From Tetrahymena thermophila SB210 (lineage: Eukaryota > Ciliophora > Oligohymenophorea > Hymenostomatida > Tetrahymenidae): a stretch of DNA of 64,000 bases. Location of the stretch: NCBI RefSeq assembly GCF_000189635.1, contig NW_002476199.1, positions 1-64,000 of the forward strand, written 5' to 3'. The notes beneath the pieces were generated by a model that searched no databases, was not told the DNA's origin, and saw only the letters and a list, made by a program, of their open reading frames with translations. Below, in pieces: positions 37,152 to 55,200 of the stretch (position 1 is its first letter; each line of letters opens with the position of its first letter). The translations under genes and the position numbers were made by a program.

Positions 37152-39313
37152 ATGAATACAAATAATAATTTTAATAGTGGATAATTTCTTGGATAAGGTG
37201 AATATAAAACGGGAAATTTCTCTTTTTAAGACATTAATAATTTGAATTCTTCAAGTTCTAATGGAGCAGGCAATAATAATTTTAGCATTAATAGTAATAA
37301 TAATAATGAACTAAGTAATTATCTCAATTTAAATGCTAACTCATAAGCAAACTAAATTCAAAGTCAAGTTAACATGATAGCATATGAACTTGATGAAGAA
37401 ATGAAAAGAGCAAAACTTGCTAATGATTTAAAATAAATAAACGATGCCCTCTAATCATATGGTTACAATAGAATTGGAAATCTGTTTGAAGTGTCAAATG
37501 ATAATATTGAGCAAGCAATAAATACGTAAAAATTTAATAATTATAAAAATGAGTATGAAGAAAAACATATTTTTTCCTTTTAATACTAATAGGATTCGCT
37601 CTCTATTATAATAAAGACAAAGAGATTTAGAATTCAGATAACTTCATCATGAAACAGCTAAGCGTGATTAAAATGATATTGCTTAAATGCATAATGCAAT
37701 TGAAAAACTTTAGATTAGAAACAAAGTATTATTTTTTTAAAAAAAAGAACATTTTTAAACTAACAAAAAAAAATTAAACAGTAATTATAAACAGAGCTTG
37801 ATGTTGTTAACTAAAAACTTAAAAATCAAGAAAGAGATTATAGGGATGAAAAGGAAAAATTAAATTCTCAACTTAGAGATATTACTCTTCAGTATAGTAA
37901 AATAGTCAACAGGGAAACGTAATTTAACAATGAATTTAGAAAGAAAGATACTATGATTAAATAGCTACAAGACCAAATTAAGAAGTACCAATAAGAAAAA
38001 AACATAAGTTATTAAAATAACTTTGAAATGACCAACAAGTTAGATAAGGTTGGACCTAACATTTATGCTGCTAATGCTGACCATGAGTTTTCTATGATGA
38101 TTACAAGAGAAAACGAAGAAATTAGATAAAAATTATTGAGAGAAAATGACATCCTAAAAGAAAGTTTGTCTTCATTGCATAAAGAACTTTAAGATATGCT
38201 TAACATAAGGAAAGAAATTTACATAAGAAGAAGAAAGATAGAGTTAGGAGAAGATTATATAGATAATCAATCAGAAATTAGTGAAATAAATTTACTTCCT
38301 TTTAAAAAAGAGCTGTTCGCCATGCCAGTTGATCCAGTATTTTTGATTAAATTTATTATTGGAATAATTAACTCATTTTTTTAACAAATAGATTGGAAGA
38401 GAAGCAATAGATATTTTGGCTGAAAACATCAAAAGATTCAAAGATTTTATGAATAAAATAGATAACATTTAAAAGGAGTATGAAGCTAATTTTGATGGTG
38501 AATAAGATAAAGAAATAGAAAAAATTGGTTGCTTAAAAAATCTAAAAAATCTTCTAAGTATTTATTTATTTATTTATTTATTTAGATAATGTATTTACTT
38601 ATTAAACTAAAAATATATTTCAGAAAATTATAAGTATGTGATTGAGACATAAGACACTTTGATCAATAAAGCTATTGTAAAAGCTAAAAATATTGATAAT
38701 ATTAGCGAAGCAAGTTTCTAAGTTTCCAGATTTAATAAAGTTTTGGATGACTAAGAGTAAATCATTATAAATCTTTATTAAATAAAAATTTTAAATAAAA
38801 AATTATAGAATTGAGAGTGCAAAATCATATTTGGCAGAGCAAAAAAGATTTTTGGAAGAAAAATCTATGGAAATGGTATAAAAAATGAATGAATATTCAT
38901 ATATATTTTATTTATAAATTAATTAATATAAATAGGAGAAAACTAAAATTATGATGACCCAAACAGTGAGCAAATTAAGCGATGCCAAAAACAGCATGAA
39001 AGTAAAATAAATACATACAATTTTTTTGAAAAAGTTGAAATATTTTTTTATTTTACAGCAAAGAAGGTTAGAGTTAGAAAAAGATGCTTCAACTTTTAAA
39101 GAAAATATTAACAATATTGTTTAAAACACCTTAAATGTATTTGACGATTTGAAAATCAGCAATCCTTAAGATTTAGATAATAACAATCATAACAATAATT
39201 ACTAAAATTAAAGCTCTCAAAAACAATACGGAAGCTTCTACAAGAGCCCTTTATTCCCTAGCAATTAAAATATTTTATTTAGTGAATAGAAAGCCGAAAT
39301 GAACAATAATTGA
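37152..39313 (+). CDS. SSX2IP/ADIP-like coiled-coil protein
   Basis: Start ATG 37152 (MNTNNNFNSGQFLGQ), stop TGA 39311-39313. Seven introns lie at 37553-37592 (40 bp), 37726-37781, 38337-38391, 38558-38623, 38757-38808, 38876-38935 and 39002-39058; 591 aa. After an Asn/Ser-rich leader come a short conserved-looking helix (LANDLKQINDALQSYGY), a long coiled coil, and the segment LPFKKELFAMPVDP joined by splicing to IGREAIDILAENIKRFKDF. That last block resembles the [LF]-x-LP-[FV]-D-x-V...I...[FW]..LK region of SSX2IP/ADIP proteins, which act at centriolar satellites, basal bodies and cell junctions. A basal-body or cytoskeletal role is inferred. The match rests on one short motif plus overall coiled-coil layout. 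Confidence 0.72.
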
Positions 39314-39824
39314 TTTACAATAATTAAAAATAAAATTTTGATACTTACCATAATTAATTTTATATTATAATAATGCAAAATAGTTAAATATCTAGCTATA
39401 TATTTACTTTATTAAATTATAATTAAAAATTAAGTTTACTCTATTAATTTTTGTAATCAAATTCAAATAATTATATTAAAAACCTTATTTTACATGAAAA
39501 AACTATTTATGATTACTTTATATTAAATTAAAATAGCATTTTATATTATCTCATATTATTTTTTTTATTAACTTCAACACAACATAAATTATAATTCTAT
39601 AGTTAAATTTAGCTTTATTTATATGATTTTTTAAGAAATATAAAAACTAAATATCTGTATTATATGTGGTTTAAAAGAAATATTTTTAATAAATTCATTC
39701 ATTATTTATATATTTATAAACCCCAGCAATCTTAATACGAAAAATTATAATAAATTTTTGATAAACCCATAAAAAATAAATTCTTCTATTTTATTGATTT
39801 ATATGATTAAGATTTGTAAATATT
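39314..39824. other. AT-rich spacer
   Basis: Very AT-rich interval between the SSX2IP-like gene and the GC-rich island; nothing recognised. Confidence 0.6.
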
Positions 39825-40040
39825 TTAGAGCGATTGCTCCAGTTACGCAATCGCTAGCATAGTTGTACCCGGTTCGTTTCCATCCGTAATGTTCCGCAAG
39901 TGGTACCGTAATGCGATAGTGGTTCCTGTGCCCGGTAGTATACAAGTAGCATTGAGACATAGTGACGACCCATGTTACCTGTCCCACTGACCACAGTAGA
40001 AAACCGATCCACAAACCCTGTCCCGCCTTTTTATTTTTAT
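39825..40040 (+). ncRNA. GC-rich island, candidate structured RNA gene or foreign insert
   Basis: About 200 bp of roughly balanced base composition in a genome that is otherwise extremely AT-rich, with sharp edges. At the left is a perfect 9-bp stem, AGCGATTGC (39829-39837) with GCAATCGCT (39847-39855), 9-nt loop. TAGCATAGTTG (39855-39865) resembles a pol III A box and GGTTCGTTTCC (39871-39881) a B box, but they are unusually close. The right edge is CCCGCC followed by two TTTTT runs (40028-40032, 40034-40038), as in pol III terminators. Words CCGTAATG and AGTGGT each occur twice within 40 bp. On the minus strand a 71-codon standard-code frame is open with non-ciliate codon use. RNA gene, horizontally acquired fragment and assembly contaminant are all possible. 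It is not a tRNA, 5S or a spliceosomal RNA I can recognise. Confidence 0.4.
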
Positions 40041-40170
40041 TAACTTTCTATTTTAGTAAAAGATATGTTATTTTGTTAATTAAAACTAGTAGAAATTTTC
40101 ATTACAATAAAAACATATTTAATTTTTTTAATAAATTTTATTCATTTTTTCAATTTAATTCTTTTGGTAA

Positions 40171-41300
40171 AATTAATGAAATTAATACAATCAGTATGCT
40201 AATTTAATAATTAAAAAGTTTAAAAATGCTAATAATGTTGATATTTAATGACAATTTATAAAAAAGGAATAATTTAGTATGTTTATCAAAGATAATTTAA
40301 TATATTTTAATTTTAAATAATTAAAAAATAAAAATTAAATTAAATGAAATAAAAATATAAAATATTAATTTATAAAAAAGAGAGATTTAGATAATTTTCA
40401 AATTAAAAATTAATTTTTTTTTTTTTTTGAGAAGTTATTTAAATTTGAAATTATTATTAAATTAAAAAATAATTTATTTTTAAATTTCTTATAAATATAA
40501 TTGAAAAATAATTATGACAGTGAGTATAAAAAATTAATGAAATTAATACAATAAGTTTGATAATTTATAATAAAAAAGTTGAAAAATGCTAATAATTGTG
40601 ATATTTAATGACAATTTTTATAAAAAAGAATAAATTTTGTATGTTTTTTTATAGATAATTTATATATTTTAATTTTAAATAATTAAAAAATAAAGATTAA
40701 ATCAATTAAAAATATAAAATATTAATTGACAAAAAAATAGATTTAAATAATTTTCAANNNNNNNNNNNNNNNNNNNNNNNNNNNNNNNNNNNNNNNNNNN
40801 NNNNNNNNNNNNNNNNNNNNNNNNNNNNNNNNNNNNNNNNNNNNNNNNNNNNNNNNNTTATTTTTATTATTTTTTTAGAAAAATTCCTTAAATTTGAAAT
40901 AATTTATAATTTTAAAATATATTTTATTTTTAAATTTCTAATAAATATAATTGAAAAATAATTTTTATAGTGAGTATAAAAAATTAATACAATAAGTTTG
41001 CTAATTTATAATAAAAAAGTTGAAAAATGATAATAATTAAGATTTTTAATGACAATTTTTATAAAAAGGAATTAATTTTGTATTTTTATTCTATATAATT
41101 TTAAATGAAATAAAAATATAAAATGTTAATTGATAAAAAAATAGATTTAAATATTTTTCAAATTAAATTAAAACTTATTTTTATTATTTTATTAGAAAAA
41201 TTACTTAAATTTGAAATAATTTATAATTTTAAAATATATTTTATGTTTAAATTTCTTATATAAATATAATTGAAAAATAATTGTGCTAGTGAGCGTAAAG
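40171..41300. repeat. tandem array of ~361-bp AT-rich units spanning an assembly gap
   Basis: A unit beginning near AATTAATGAAATTAATACAA recurs at 40171 and 40532 (period 361 bp) and, with a small deletion, at about 40981. Each copy repeats in order a GCTAATAAT...GATATTTAATGACAATTT block, an AATTTTAAATAATTAAAAAATAAA block, a poly-T block and an AATATAATTGAAAAATAATT block. Similarity by eye is high between copies. No ORF. Confidence 0.85.
40758..40857. other. assembly gap of exactly 100 N
   Basis: A run of 100 undetermined bases inside the ~361-bp tandem array. The round number suggests a placeholder of unknown true length, consistent with repeats that could not be spanned. Confidence 0.98.
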
Positions 41301-41416
41301 AAAAATAATATTGTGAGAGACAATACAAATTGTTCATTATTATATATAAAATATATTAATTAATTCGAAATATTTTTAATATTTGGTTGGTTAGCTAGAT
41401 AGTTAGCAAACCATTA

Positions 41417-44400
41417 TCAAAGGTCTTAAATATCTAAAGGCTATCCATGTTTTGACTTTGAGCTTTAGCTCTATGGTTGAGATTATGACTAAAGTAATTT
41501 TTATTATTTTTATAAAATTACTTTGTTTGGAGAAGGTGAAGCAAACTTATAATGAGTGAAATTCATTAAATTTTTTCTAACTGGAATTGACGACTTTTAG
41601 CTCATGCTGCTTTAATTGTTTTAATAGGTAGCATTACTAGCTTCTTGCTCATTCTATGAAGAATTTTAATTAAAGTGATCTGCCTTACTTTTTTAAAGTT
41701 AAGATTTATGTATGTTATTTTATTCTGTTTTAATTTGTATGTGAGAAGAATTTTAATTATTAATTGGTGATGGGATGTCTTAAGAATTATTTCTAGAGAT
41801 AGTTAATCTATGTTTCTACTTAAGAATTTCTAACTTTAACTCCTGTAAAGATTTTTCAGCTAGAGTAGAAAGGTAAGTAGGAGTATTTTAACGTGAATAC
41901 TCCTTCTTTGCATACGACTTTTAACTATTTTTCACTGAATCGATATGAGCTTAAACATTTTATTTATGAGTTGTATCTGGAGAATAAGCAAAAATATTAC
42001 TATTATTATCTTAATTAAAAGGAGATATAGTATCACAGTTATAAGTATCATTGCGTTAATAGTTAAGTAAAGGGCTTTATTGCTTTAATCCATTATTAAA
42101 GTAGTAGTTAACTGATTCATCTTTACCTTGCTTCTCATTTTTGTTATTTGCAAATATACTTGGATTATTAAGCTAACGATGAGTGAATTTACTTTCTTCG
42201 ACTTAAGAATTTCTTTTATATGGTGAGTTTGTGGAAGAGTTTATTAATTTTTCATTTTGATTCTTTTATATGTTCTTGCTTTTTGATCTTTATGATTATT
42301 TCTAACTTTAATTTGGAGACTCATAAGGGGATTAATGATTCGTGGAAGATCTATTTCTGTTAGATTAAGAAGACATTTTGCTATTTGTTATTTGCTAAGG
42401 GGATTTCTAATATTTGGAAGTTGATCCTAGTGTATAATTTATTCCATCAACAAAATTATTTGTTTACATACTCTTGCTTTATCCTCTAATAGAAATATTA
42501 TTTTATGAATTTGAGAGTTGCAAACTATTATTACTTTTATTTGAAGAGTTACCTGATACTGGTATCTCCTGTTTTTAAAAATTCTTCATTGTTTTTTCAT
42601 ATTCTTTTTAAAGAGCTAATCTAGCAGTTCTTTAAGTTTGCAATAGGGTATTATTTTATAGACTATCAATATTAATATTATTGGTGTTATTGAGATTATT
42701 GCTGCTTCTACCATCATTGTTGCTATTTTACTTATTCATAGAAGAAGTAGAAGATGTAGAATGAGCTAACTATTCATTTGAATCCTCTAATTCAATTTGC
42801 TAAAGATGAGCTTTCATGTTATGAATTTTACTTCTTGTTTCATTAAGAACTTAGAGCTCCTTTTTTTCTGATTCTTCTAATTTATTTTTGATGTCAGATA
42901 TCATGTTAGCATACATAACTTGGCTTTTCTAAGCATTTTAATTCACCATCTCTAATTATTTTTAGTTTTTTTCCACTGAACGAGCTGATCTCGACTCTAC
43001 TTTAAGTAACTAGTTTTTTAATTGAATAATTTCATTATTAAGCTAAATTTTTTCAGTTATATTTCTTTCTTCCAGTGAGTTTATTTCTTGCTAATATTTT
43101 TACTTTTCTTCCTAAAATCTAGTGTTTTATTCTAATACTTTCTGCTCAAGCAGAGAAATCTACTTATTGAAATGTGATTCTCTTTCACGCATGATTAATC
43201 TTTCTTTATCAAGCTAAGTTTCAAATTTGGTAGATATATTTTCTTAATATTTTTCCATTTCATTATCATACTAAACTTTAAGTTTAGATTTCTATTCTCT
43301 ACTAAACTGCATAATATCTTGGAAATATTAGAGAGTTCTACTATGAGTATCATTTATTTCAGAATTGCATTTTGACTAAAAAATGGTTAGGTCTTATCTA
43401 GCTTCTGCCAGACTGCTTAAGACTCCTTTGAGCTTGTCTTGAGTATATTCTTTCTATTATTTTTAGTAAATATGATACTATTTCTCTTTTTATTTCAAGC
43501 TATCTTAGAGTTACAAAATTTCTGAATTTAATGAATCCTCCTCCTTTTAAAATTAAAGTTTTAATTCTTCAATTTAATTTCTTTATTCATTCAACATAGT
43601 TTCCTTTTCAGTAAGCTATTCAATAAATTCCTCTTATTCCTCTTCTTTTTAAATTAAATTTTACTAGAGTTCTTAGCATTTTTGTTCAAATGTTTTTAAT
43701 TACTATTCCATATATAATTTTTCTCTTTCAACCTAAAGATTGTGTTACTGTGCTTCGAATTAAAGTTATTTCTATGTTGCTTTAATTTATTATTATAATT
43801 AGGCGACTTCACTTGTTTTTTACTGTAAATCTAACAAAAGTTTTTTTTCTACGTTATTTTTTTCTTGTAATAGATCTTTGAGCTCATTATTTAGCTTTTA
43901 GTTATCCTTGGCATATTGAGAAATATTTTCTTCCTAAAGAGAAATCTATCTTACTTTTTAATTGTATTATTCTTTAATTGTTTAGGATTCTTAAGTAAGG
44001 AGGTCAATTTAAATAGATGTCTTTTCAAAAGCGTTATTCTTTTCTTGTAAAAGAGCCTCTAAATTGTTTATTTTTGCTTCCAATTATATTTTTTATTCTT
44101 AAAGATCCTTTAGTTTTTCTTTTTATTATTCATATTTTTTAGTAAGTTCACTCAAAGTTTCCAAGCATTTCACCTTTTCAGATGTTGTAGAATTTAATTA
44201 AATTTATATAAATTCAATTTCTTTTTGCTTGGTTGAAAGCTTTTCTTCAAATAAAAGCTAGTTGTGTTTAATTTCGCTTTATTGGCGCTCAACCTCAATT
44301 TTTAAAGAAACTTCATTTTCTTTTAAACGCATCTACCCATCTAATGCATATCTTTTTTCTTTTTCTTATCCTTACTATAATTCAAATAACTAATTTTTAT

Positions 44401-52200: not shown

Positions 52201-55200
52201 AGTGCTATTAAACTTGAGAATGTTGATGACTGTCTTCCTCTTCTTGAATTTGCTTTAAATTATTTGGAGGTATTTAAGAATTTGATCTTCGCTAACTGCT
52301 TAACTAGCCACCTTACGATGTTTATTAGGTGTTATTATTAAAATTACTACTTAGATGACTCGTATTAGTATTCAGTTTTGCTTGCTAAAGCTGCTAAGTT
52401 TGCTATTACTGTGCTGATGGAGCTTGTTTATTAATATTCAACATCGAATATTAGCTAGTATTATGGTTGCTTGATTAAAGAACTACTGAACCTCCATTTC
52501 CATTATATCTAATGTCATTTGGAGAGATTTTGTTATGATAGAAATACCATAAATCATCTAAAAACCCCCAAAAAATATTTTCATTTTATTAAATTAGGAA
52601 CTATTATGAAAGATATCGAGGATTCATTTTATCAAAATTTTTCAAATAATTAAATATCTTTAAATAATTTGCAGTAATTTATGCTTCTTTTTTTGGTTTT
52701 CTTTCTAAACCTTTTATGATCTAGTTTTTACCTTCCATTAGATTGATAATATCAGCAAAGATAATACCATCCTTGCATATTTTGTGTAATTTCTAGTCTA
52801 AATTAGGTATTTGCTTCAATAATTTAATATCATTTAGCCAGTTTAATAGCTTAGCCCTAGTTTTTTCTGAAACTGTTTCTATTTCAATATCTAAAACAAT
52901 GGCATTTGATGTTGCAGATAAAGGATCACCCTTATTTGAAATTCGGGAAATATTAACTCCTCCTTATAAAATTTTTTTTAAATTAACTTTTTCTTCTTTG
53001 GTATCCTTTTATAAAAATTCTTGTGCTTCTTTAATCTTTTATTCGCTGCAGTGTTTATTTGAAGTAAATTTATCTATGATAAAACTGTTCTTATGCTGAG
53101 GAGAACAATTAAATGAGTGAGAATTGTATTACTAAGGTTATAATTAAGTATTATTTGAATCAGCTTTTTGTTATTTTTAATTTTTAAAGTAATTCACTGT
53201 TGCTCTTTCTTCATTTATGAATTTAGATTTTTGTTAAATACCACAATCCTCTTCTTCCCCATACTTATTGTTGAGTATATTTTTTACATCCTGATAGTGA
53301 ATTTAATTTTTTGCTAGCTACCTTTTTGGGTATTAAAGGGCAGCCATATCTTTCATAGTCATTGGTATTAAGTTTTATTTGGTGGGTGTATATTTTTGAG
53401 GTTCTCTAACTGGAACAGAATTTAATTTTCTAGGTTGTGTTTCTTCAAAAATATTATTTTGATTTGGAAAATGAGGAACTTCTTAAGAAAAACTGTTACG
53501 ATTGCTATAATCGTTATCAATTGTTGGAAGTTAGCGAGGTTAATCTTCATCATTTTCTTATTAGTTCTCTAACTAATAGTTTTTAAGCTTCTCCTAATGA
53601 GTAACTTCTCCCGGTACTTCAATTATCTATTCTTAAAAAGGTTTCGATCCTGGTCTCATTTTATTCATTTAATAAAATCTTGTTTGACTTGAAGTATTTC
53701 TTGCTGATTAATCAAATTCATCACTTTTTTAAAGTTTTTTGAATAAAATTAAAACATTTTAAAAATAAATTTTACTTTTTTTAGCTATTACTTGATTTTT
53801 AAAACATAAGAGGAGCATTTTATTGATCTTAATTTCCAGCTTAACCTTCTTAGACAGAATCCACATCAACAGGATATCCATCTTCTTATATATTGAAAAA
53901 ATTATTGCTTGTATTTTTAGTGCTATTTTATTTTTTGAAATACTCACTAAGTGATTATGACATTTTTTAAATATTTTCTACATTTATAACTTAATTGTTG
54001 GGAGCATCACCGAACTCATCCTATTTTTCTATATCGTATTGAGCTTATTAATTGCTGCTCCTATGGCTATTTGATGATTATCCATTATTCATATATTCTT
54101 ACTAATGTCTTAATTTATAATCATTTTCTATCATCTTGCTATTTTATTAGCTACTTCTATTAGATTGTATACCAGGAGTTTAATTTTGAAAGCTATTATT
54201 TGATTAATGATATGCATTATCTTGCGATAGGCCCATTTCATATGGATTCTCCATGTAGGCAGCATCACTTTCATTATCTGGTTCTAAAAGTTCATCACCA
54301 ACACCACTAGATCCCTTTACTTATTTAAGTCCAAATTAAGGAGAAATGTATTGGTTTGCATTATTTGTTGTACTTCCATTGCTGTATTTATTACTTTCTT
54401 AATATGTTCCACTAAGCTTCATTTTATTTGGTAAGGGAGGTTTTTTATATTATTATATACCTTATTAGTAAAGTTAGTTATTTTACTATAAAGGTTTGTC
54501 ATTATTTGACTAATTTTTATCTATTCTCTATAAGTACTCAATTAATTAAATAATAGCATCTGTTTCTCCATAAACTTATTGAGGAGTGAGGTTTAAATTT
54601 GGATCATTAATCTCTTAAAGTGCCAATGAAATATTCTAAATACATCTTTATTGATTCAAATTACTTGTAATAACTTTGCTTAAAAATGAGCCACCTTTCC
54701 TTTAAAGAACTACATCATAAACTAATTCACAAAAGATGATACCTATTTTAAATTTTATATTTAAATAGTATAAAAACCAATACCTATTTTTTTTATATAA
54801 GTTCTTAAATAGCAAAATTATTTTCTCTTATTTAAAACTAACTAACTAAATAATTGTAAAACTTTAATAATGCCAGAAGTAATTATTTCTTTCAAAAGAA
54901 AAAAAAATGATTAAATCAATACCACTCTAAAAATCTGATAAATCGATAGCTTAGGAGCAATGTGGATAATTCTAGAATTAATTTACCCAGCTAATTAAAA
55001 ACTCTATAGTCTTTTTATTAAAAATAAATTGAATTAGTAACAACCTTATTCAGTAAATATTATATTTTTATGAATAGAGAAGCTTTTTTAATTATGAGTC
55101 GACTAAAGATGAGCTAAAAAAATGAGCTAAATTATAATCTTAATATGAAATGATGCATGTAATATTTACCAAATTTTGCTATAAGTATGGATCATCACTG

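Follow-up and report, generated by a model that had tools for sequence, protein, structure and literature searches.

What is the GC-rich island at 39829–40027 in the first 64,000 nucleotides (forward strand) of contig NW_002476199.1 from Tetrahymena thermophila SB210 (NCBI RefSeq assembly GCF_000189635.1; this whole stretch is called the window below)? A sequence-only reading had proposed an undescribed structured RNA gene with internal A and B boxes, and had kept horizontal transfer or contamination open. Our analysis supports the RNA gene, where "undescribed" means that no Rfam 15 family matched at threshold. We concluded that 39765–40038 very probably constitutes a native small nuclear RNA (snRNA)-type gene (type 3, with an external promoter) for RNA polymerase III (Pol III), which would encode a non-coding RNA (ncRNA) of ~200 nt and of which no second copy was detected. 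The locus has promoter words at matching spacing, a T-run, a fold above chance and no match in Rfam, and we regard it as a convincing candidate for an Rfam-orphan gene with an snRNA-type Pol III promoter.

The near-balanced composition that first drew attention to the island was borne out. Its G+C fraction was 0.508, against 0.14 and 0.12 in the 100-bp flanks. Segments of 200 bp from the whole window averaged 0.219 (standard deviation 0.056, n = 6354); the top 12 segments by G+C all overlapped the island, which is the GC maximum of the 64-kb window.

The evidence that carries our conclusion comes from the promoter, which we compared with RNA genes of the same 101-Mb, 445-contig genome. The Pol III reference set comprised one telomerase RNA (TER), four U6, three signal recognition particle (SRP) RNA and one RNase P RNA gene; the RNA polymerase II (Pol II) set comprised four U3 matches and the eight of nine U2 matches for which loci were returned. 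TER, U6, SRP and RNase P RNAs are taken as Pol III products and U3 and U2 as Pol II products, following general knowledge. The candidate's proximal sequence element (PSE), ACCCATAA, stood in exact form upstream of eight of the nine genes in the Pol III set. Its distance was −61 to −65 for TER, the four U6 and two of the three SRP genes, and −70 for RNase P, where it is counted from the start of the model. SRP L007, the remaining gene, had a one-mismatch PSE at −63. The word occurred twice among the 128000 positions of the window, the candidate site included, and its chance of falling in a given five-position slot is ~4e-5 to 8e-5, an estimate that rests on very few counts. The second occurrence (minus strand, 22523) was rejected as a similar gene, its downstream DNA having 23% GC. 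Plant-like snRNA promoters are said to have been described in Tetrahymena by Orum in 1992, and Hargrove in 1999 reportedly found the PSE to be essential for the TER promoter.

The Pol II genes carried a closely similar word, AACCATAA, at −62 to −67 in four U2 loci and in all four U3 loci. This word also occurs in the window at 52468 on the minus strand, where GC is 32% over 100 bp at the would-be transcript start and the DNA may be coding sequence. Because four further, U2-like loci share ACCCATAA, neither the PSE word nor its third C is enough by itself to tell which polymerase is used. Counted from the PSE start, the TATA-like word lay at +35 in all four U6 genes and SRP L009 and at +33 in RNase P, versus +30 in all four U3 loci and +28 to +30 in the four canonical U2 loci. 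Two of the four U2-like loci had it at +30 and the other two weakly, so that 10 of the 12 U2/U3 loci fell at +28/+30. The candidate matched the U6 spacing, and its TTTATATG around TATATG has the same letters in the same place as SRP L009. The 3' box word TAATCA started 11–24 bp past the model end in 11 of the 12 U2/U3 loci (the miss being U3 L019); it was found downstream of none of the nine Pol III reference genes, nor downstream of the candidate. With its PSE, a TATA-like word at +35 and no 3' box, the candidate therefore looks like an snRNA-type (type 3) Pol III gene. In land plants, according to one paper (PMC9841428), the distance from upstream sequence element (USE) to TATA determines which of Pol II and Pol III transcribes the gene; a similar spacing rule shows here in the Tetrahymena set.

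The doubled TTTTT at the 3' end was present as previously noted: CCGCC-TTTTT ends at 40032 and is followed by ATTTTT. SRP L008 and L009 likewise terminate in CTTTTTATTTTT. Since seven of the eight U2 loci also carried a T-run within the 48 nt scanned, a T-run anywhere in that interval does not separate the polymerase classes.

The island also folded better than expected on its plus strand, at −56.6 kcal/mol (z −3.31; among 200 dinucleotide shuffles, one did as well). The predicted fold consists of three tandem hairpins and then CCGCC-UUUUU, with pairing probabilities of at least 0.90 in 54 of 61 pairs and the weakest values (0.53–0.56) at 39946, 39947 and 39949. Folded by itself, hairpin 1, whose perfect stem had already been noticed and was confirmed, was far beyond chance, and hairpin 3 was moderately above it (Table 1). 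The repeated words reported earlier were likewise found, as two copies of CCGTAATG at 39884–39891 and 39906–39913.

Table 1. Elements of the candidate Pol III gene, numbered as in the window.
Feature	Position	Strand	Remarks
PSE/USE ACCCATAA	39765–39772	+	64 bp upstream of hairpin 1 (39829)
TATA-like word TATATG	39800–39805	+	35 bp from PSE start
Predicted transcription start	39826–39830	+	PSE start + 61–65 bp, following the spacing in TER, U6 and SRP
Hairpin 1	39829–39855	+	perfect 9-bp stem 39829–39837/39847–39855 at predicted 5' end; alone z −5.28, 0/200 shuffles
Hairpin 2	39857–39914	+	alone z −1.51, 16/200 shuffles
Hairpin 3, long arm	39915–40022	+	alone z −2.56, 2/200 shuffles
Pol III terminator (predicted) TTTTTATTTTT	40028–40038	+	TTTTT at 40028–40032

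Several results weigh against a Pol III gene of this type. The presence of ACCCATAA itself at the four U2-like loci is one. RNase MRP (the best of six matches and the sole one above the family cut-off) had no PSE within −85 to −45, the closest word having three mismatches; the promoter rule therefore does not hold for every gene. A TATA-like word at +33/+35 was missing from three of the nine Pol III reference genes: TER and SRP L008 had none by the search used, and the best in SRP L007 lay at +20. Close paralogues occur among the reference genes, which are not independent, and the promoter comparison rests on the sequence of one genome. As for the fold, the minus strand of the island also scored well (z −2.25; 4 of 200 shuffles equally good), and hairpin 2 by itself was not clearly beyond chance. 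At the MRP locus (L010; G000:C258:102064-102338) we also observed no T-run in the 48 nt at the model end, unlike the other RNA genes compared.

We then weighed other explanations of the island. A Pol II gene of the snRNA or small nucleolar RNA (snoRNA) type, or a processed snoRNA, is improbable: the U2/U3 PSE resembles the candidate's in word and distance and is identical at the U2-like loci, but the TATA-like word at +35 rather than +28/+30, the T-run at the end in place of a 3' box, and the lack of a snoRNA match in Rfam all argue otherwise. The internal boxes fared no better as a promoter, although both words exist as had been claimed. The A-box-like TAGCATAGTTG (39855–39865) agrees exactly with the A-box consensus, and the B-box-like GGTTCGTTTCC (39871–39881) has one mismatch. 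Only 5 bp separate them, however, and shuffling the island 20000 times produced an exact A box in 1343 cases (6.7%) and a B box with one mismatch or none in 403 (2.0%). ARAGORN found no tRNA in the whole window, and the island has neither the box spacing nor the fold of a tRNA-type (type 2) gene. We therefore disfavour an internal promoter; an external snRNA-type promoter would explain the predicted transcription better than A and B boxes. A tRNA-like unit, or one resembling a short interspersed element, run from these boxes would moreover have to accommodate an external promoter and the failure to find a second copy in the genome, and we consider it very unlikely.

Foreign origin, whether as contamination or as DNA acquired horizontally from a bacterium, phage or vector, and possibly with a minus-strand gene, is suggested by a composition sharply unlike the flanks, by an open minus-strand frame and by an assembly gap. 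The frame runs to 82 codons from stop to stop in the standard code, near the 71 first given. Long open frames mean little here because the ciliate code stops only at TGA; two minus-strand frames had no protein homologue and four frames had no Pfam match, and a coding minus strand is accordingly disfavoured. The gap (40758–40857), described as adjacent to the island, is real but lies ~730 bp away within an AT-rich tandem repeat. No match to the island was found in plasmids or E. coli genomes. Phage matches were short, in 20 records (17 Lactococcus, 3 Vibrio), the best having an expect value (E) of 0.2 over 22 bases; this exact Lactococcus-phage match, of which a 20-base part also occurs in two viral contigs, was taken as chance. 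A 23-base word of hairpin 1, the single exact word searched, was absent from genome_contigs. Together with a PSE and a TATA-like word that, like the T-run, are spaced as in native Pol III genes, these results leave the transfer or contamination idea unsupported, and we give it a very small chance.

Assuming a native Pol III gene, we asked which RNA it might encode. The Rfam check recommended in the sequence-only reading was run: no family reached the gathering score of Rfam 15 anywhere in the window. A lax search of 39700–40100 returned only VrrA (E 6) and the trypanosomatid mitochondrial large subunit rRNA (E 5.2, minus strand); neither came anywhere near its threshold, and both are implausible. 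TER, U6, SRP, MRP, RNase P, U3 and U2 were rejected as identities, since each matched elsewhere in the genome (the ciliate telomerase RNA model at 161.9 bits) and none matched here. 7SK (RF00100) was rejected as well, with no match genome-wide at E 10 and none at the locus in the lax search. A DNA query of the genome recovered only the candidate itself, a single match that does not prove rarity.

The candidate thus resembles the U6, SRP, RNase P and TER genes of Tetrahymena in PSE word and distance, in its T-run end and in lacking a 3' box, and U6 and one SRP gene also in the TATA-like word at +35. It differs from all four in its unrelated RNA sequence, their Rfam models having no match at the locus. 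7SK is similar in layout only, as a type 3 Pol III gene with a 5' hairpin and a 3' hairpin before the U tail; it differs in the absence of a model match and in size (~200 nt for the candidate versus 331 model positions).

The candidate could instead be a Tetrahymena RNA that is known by experiment yet missing from Rfam, either G8 RNA or one of the ncRNAs of Andersen and Nielsen. We put this at somewhat less than an even chance. It is compatible with a Pol III gene and would only remove the novelty. Andersen and Nielsen in 2012 reportedly cloned macronuclear ncRNAs in a survey, which makes such an identity conceivable; in the part of the literature searched, which did not extend to that survey, no publication was recognised as describing the candidate RNA. 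G8 RNA, the leading known candidate, is a heat-shock-induced, Pol III-transcribed small RNA of the same organism, which is its likeness to our locus. Its length may exceed 200 nt, which would count against the match. Contrary to what G8 would lead one to expect, no heat-shock element with at most one mismatch to the consensus occurred in 39301–39900, a result that bears on G8 only indirectly. G8 is named as a stress-specific gene of Tetrahymena in excerpts of one paper (PMC6315972).

The transcription of the candidate RNA, its start and end, and its bound proteins can be predicted by analogy with the reference genes. The PSE at 39765 would be bound by a SNAPc-like factor, and TFIIIB would sit on the TATA-like word at 39800; Pol III would then initiate at 39826–39830 and stop in the T-run at 40028–40032. 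The transcript would fold as three hairpins in a row and offer a U tail to a La-type protein. With a 5' hairpin, a body that is for the most part paired, and a U tail, the RNA would fit the pattern of a stable scaffold to which such a protein binds, and our guess is that the RNA probably serves as the scaffold of a small ribonucleoprotein (RNP). For the Tetrahymena La protein Mlp1, excerpts of one study (PMC9705548) indicate that pre-tRNAs are preferred and U5 is less enriched. We would further guess, as a possible but rather unlikely role, that the candidate is a scaffold with a part in regulation or in the stress response, in the manner of 7SK or G8 RNA. Slightly more doubtful is an unreported ciliate Pol III RNA of independent origin, whose three hairpins would scaffold an RNP of its own, for example one that controls transcription or translation in the way of 7SK or G8.

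To our knowledge, few stable Pol III RNAs exist besides tRNA, 5S, U6, SRP, RNase P/MRP and telomerase RNA. Another with a full promoter signature would be open to knockout and pull-down in a tractable ciliate. The combination of the PSE word, a TATA-like word at +35 versus +28/+30, and a T-run versus a 3' box also suggests a route to further orphan RNA genes.

Turning to the surroundings, the island sits in an interval of ~2.1 kb separating convergent open frames, the plus-strand one ending at 39313 and the minus-strand one at 41417; these are mechanical open frames and not gene models. The AT-rich tandem repeat beyond it (40180–41330) has three copies at a spacing of ~320–450 bp, with the gap of 100 Ns inside, and the repeat is the likely reason for the gap.

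Lastly, the comparison with U2 revealed a cluster of five divergent U2-like matches at G000:C329:205096-209036 (L027–L030 and the ninth match, without a locus). Their scores were 99–104 bits, versus 146–150 for canonical U2. The three printed sequences (L027–L029) begin with TGTCCTTCTC, retain GTAGTATCTGTTC and have an altered first stem, and all four loci carry both the PSE ACCCATAA and the 3' box. The cluster is possibly a U2 variant family.
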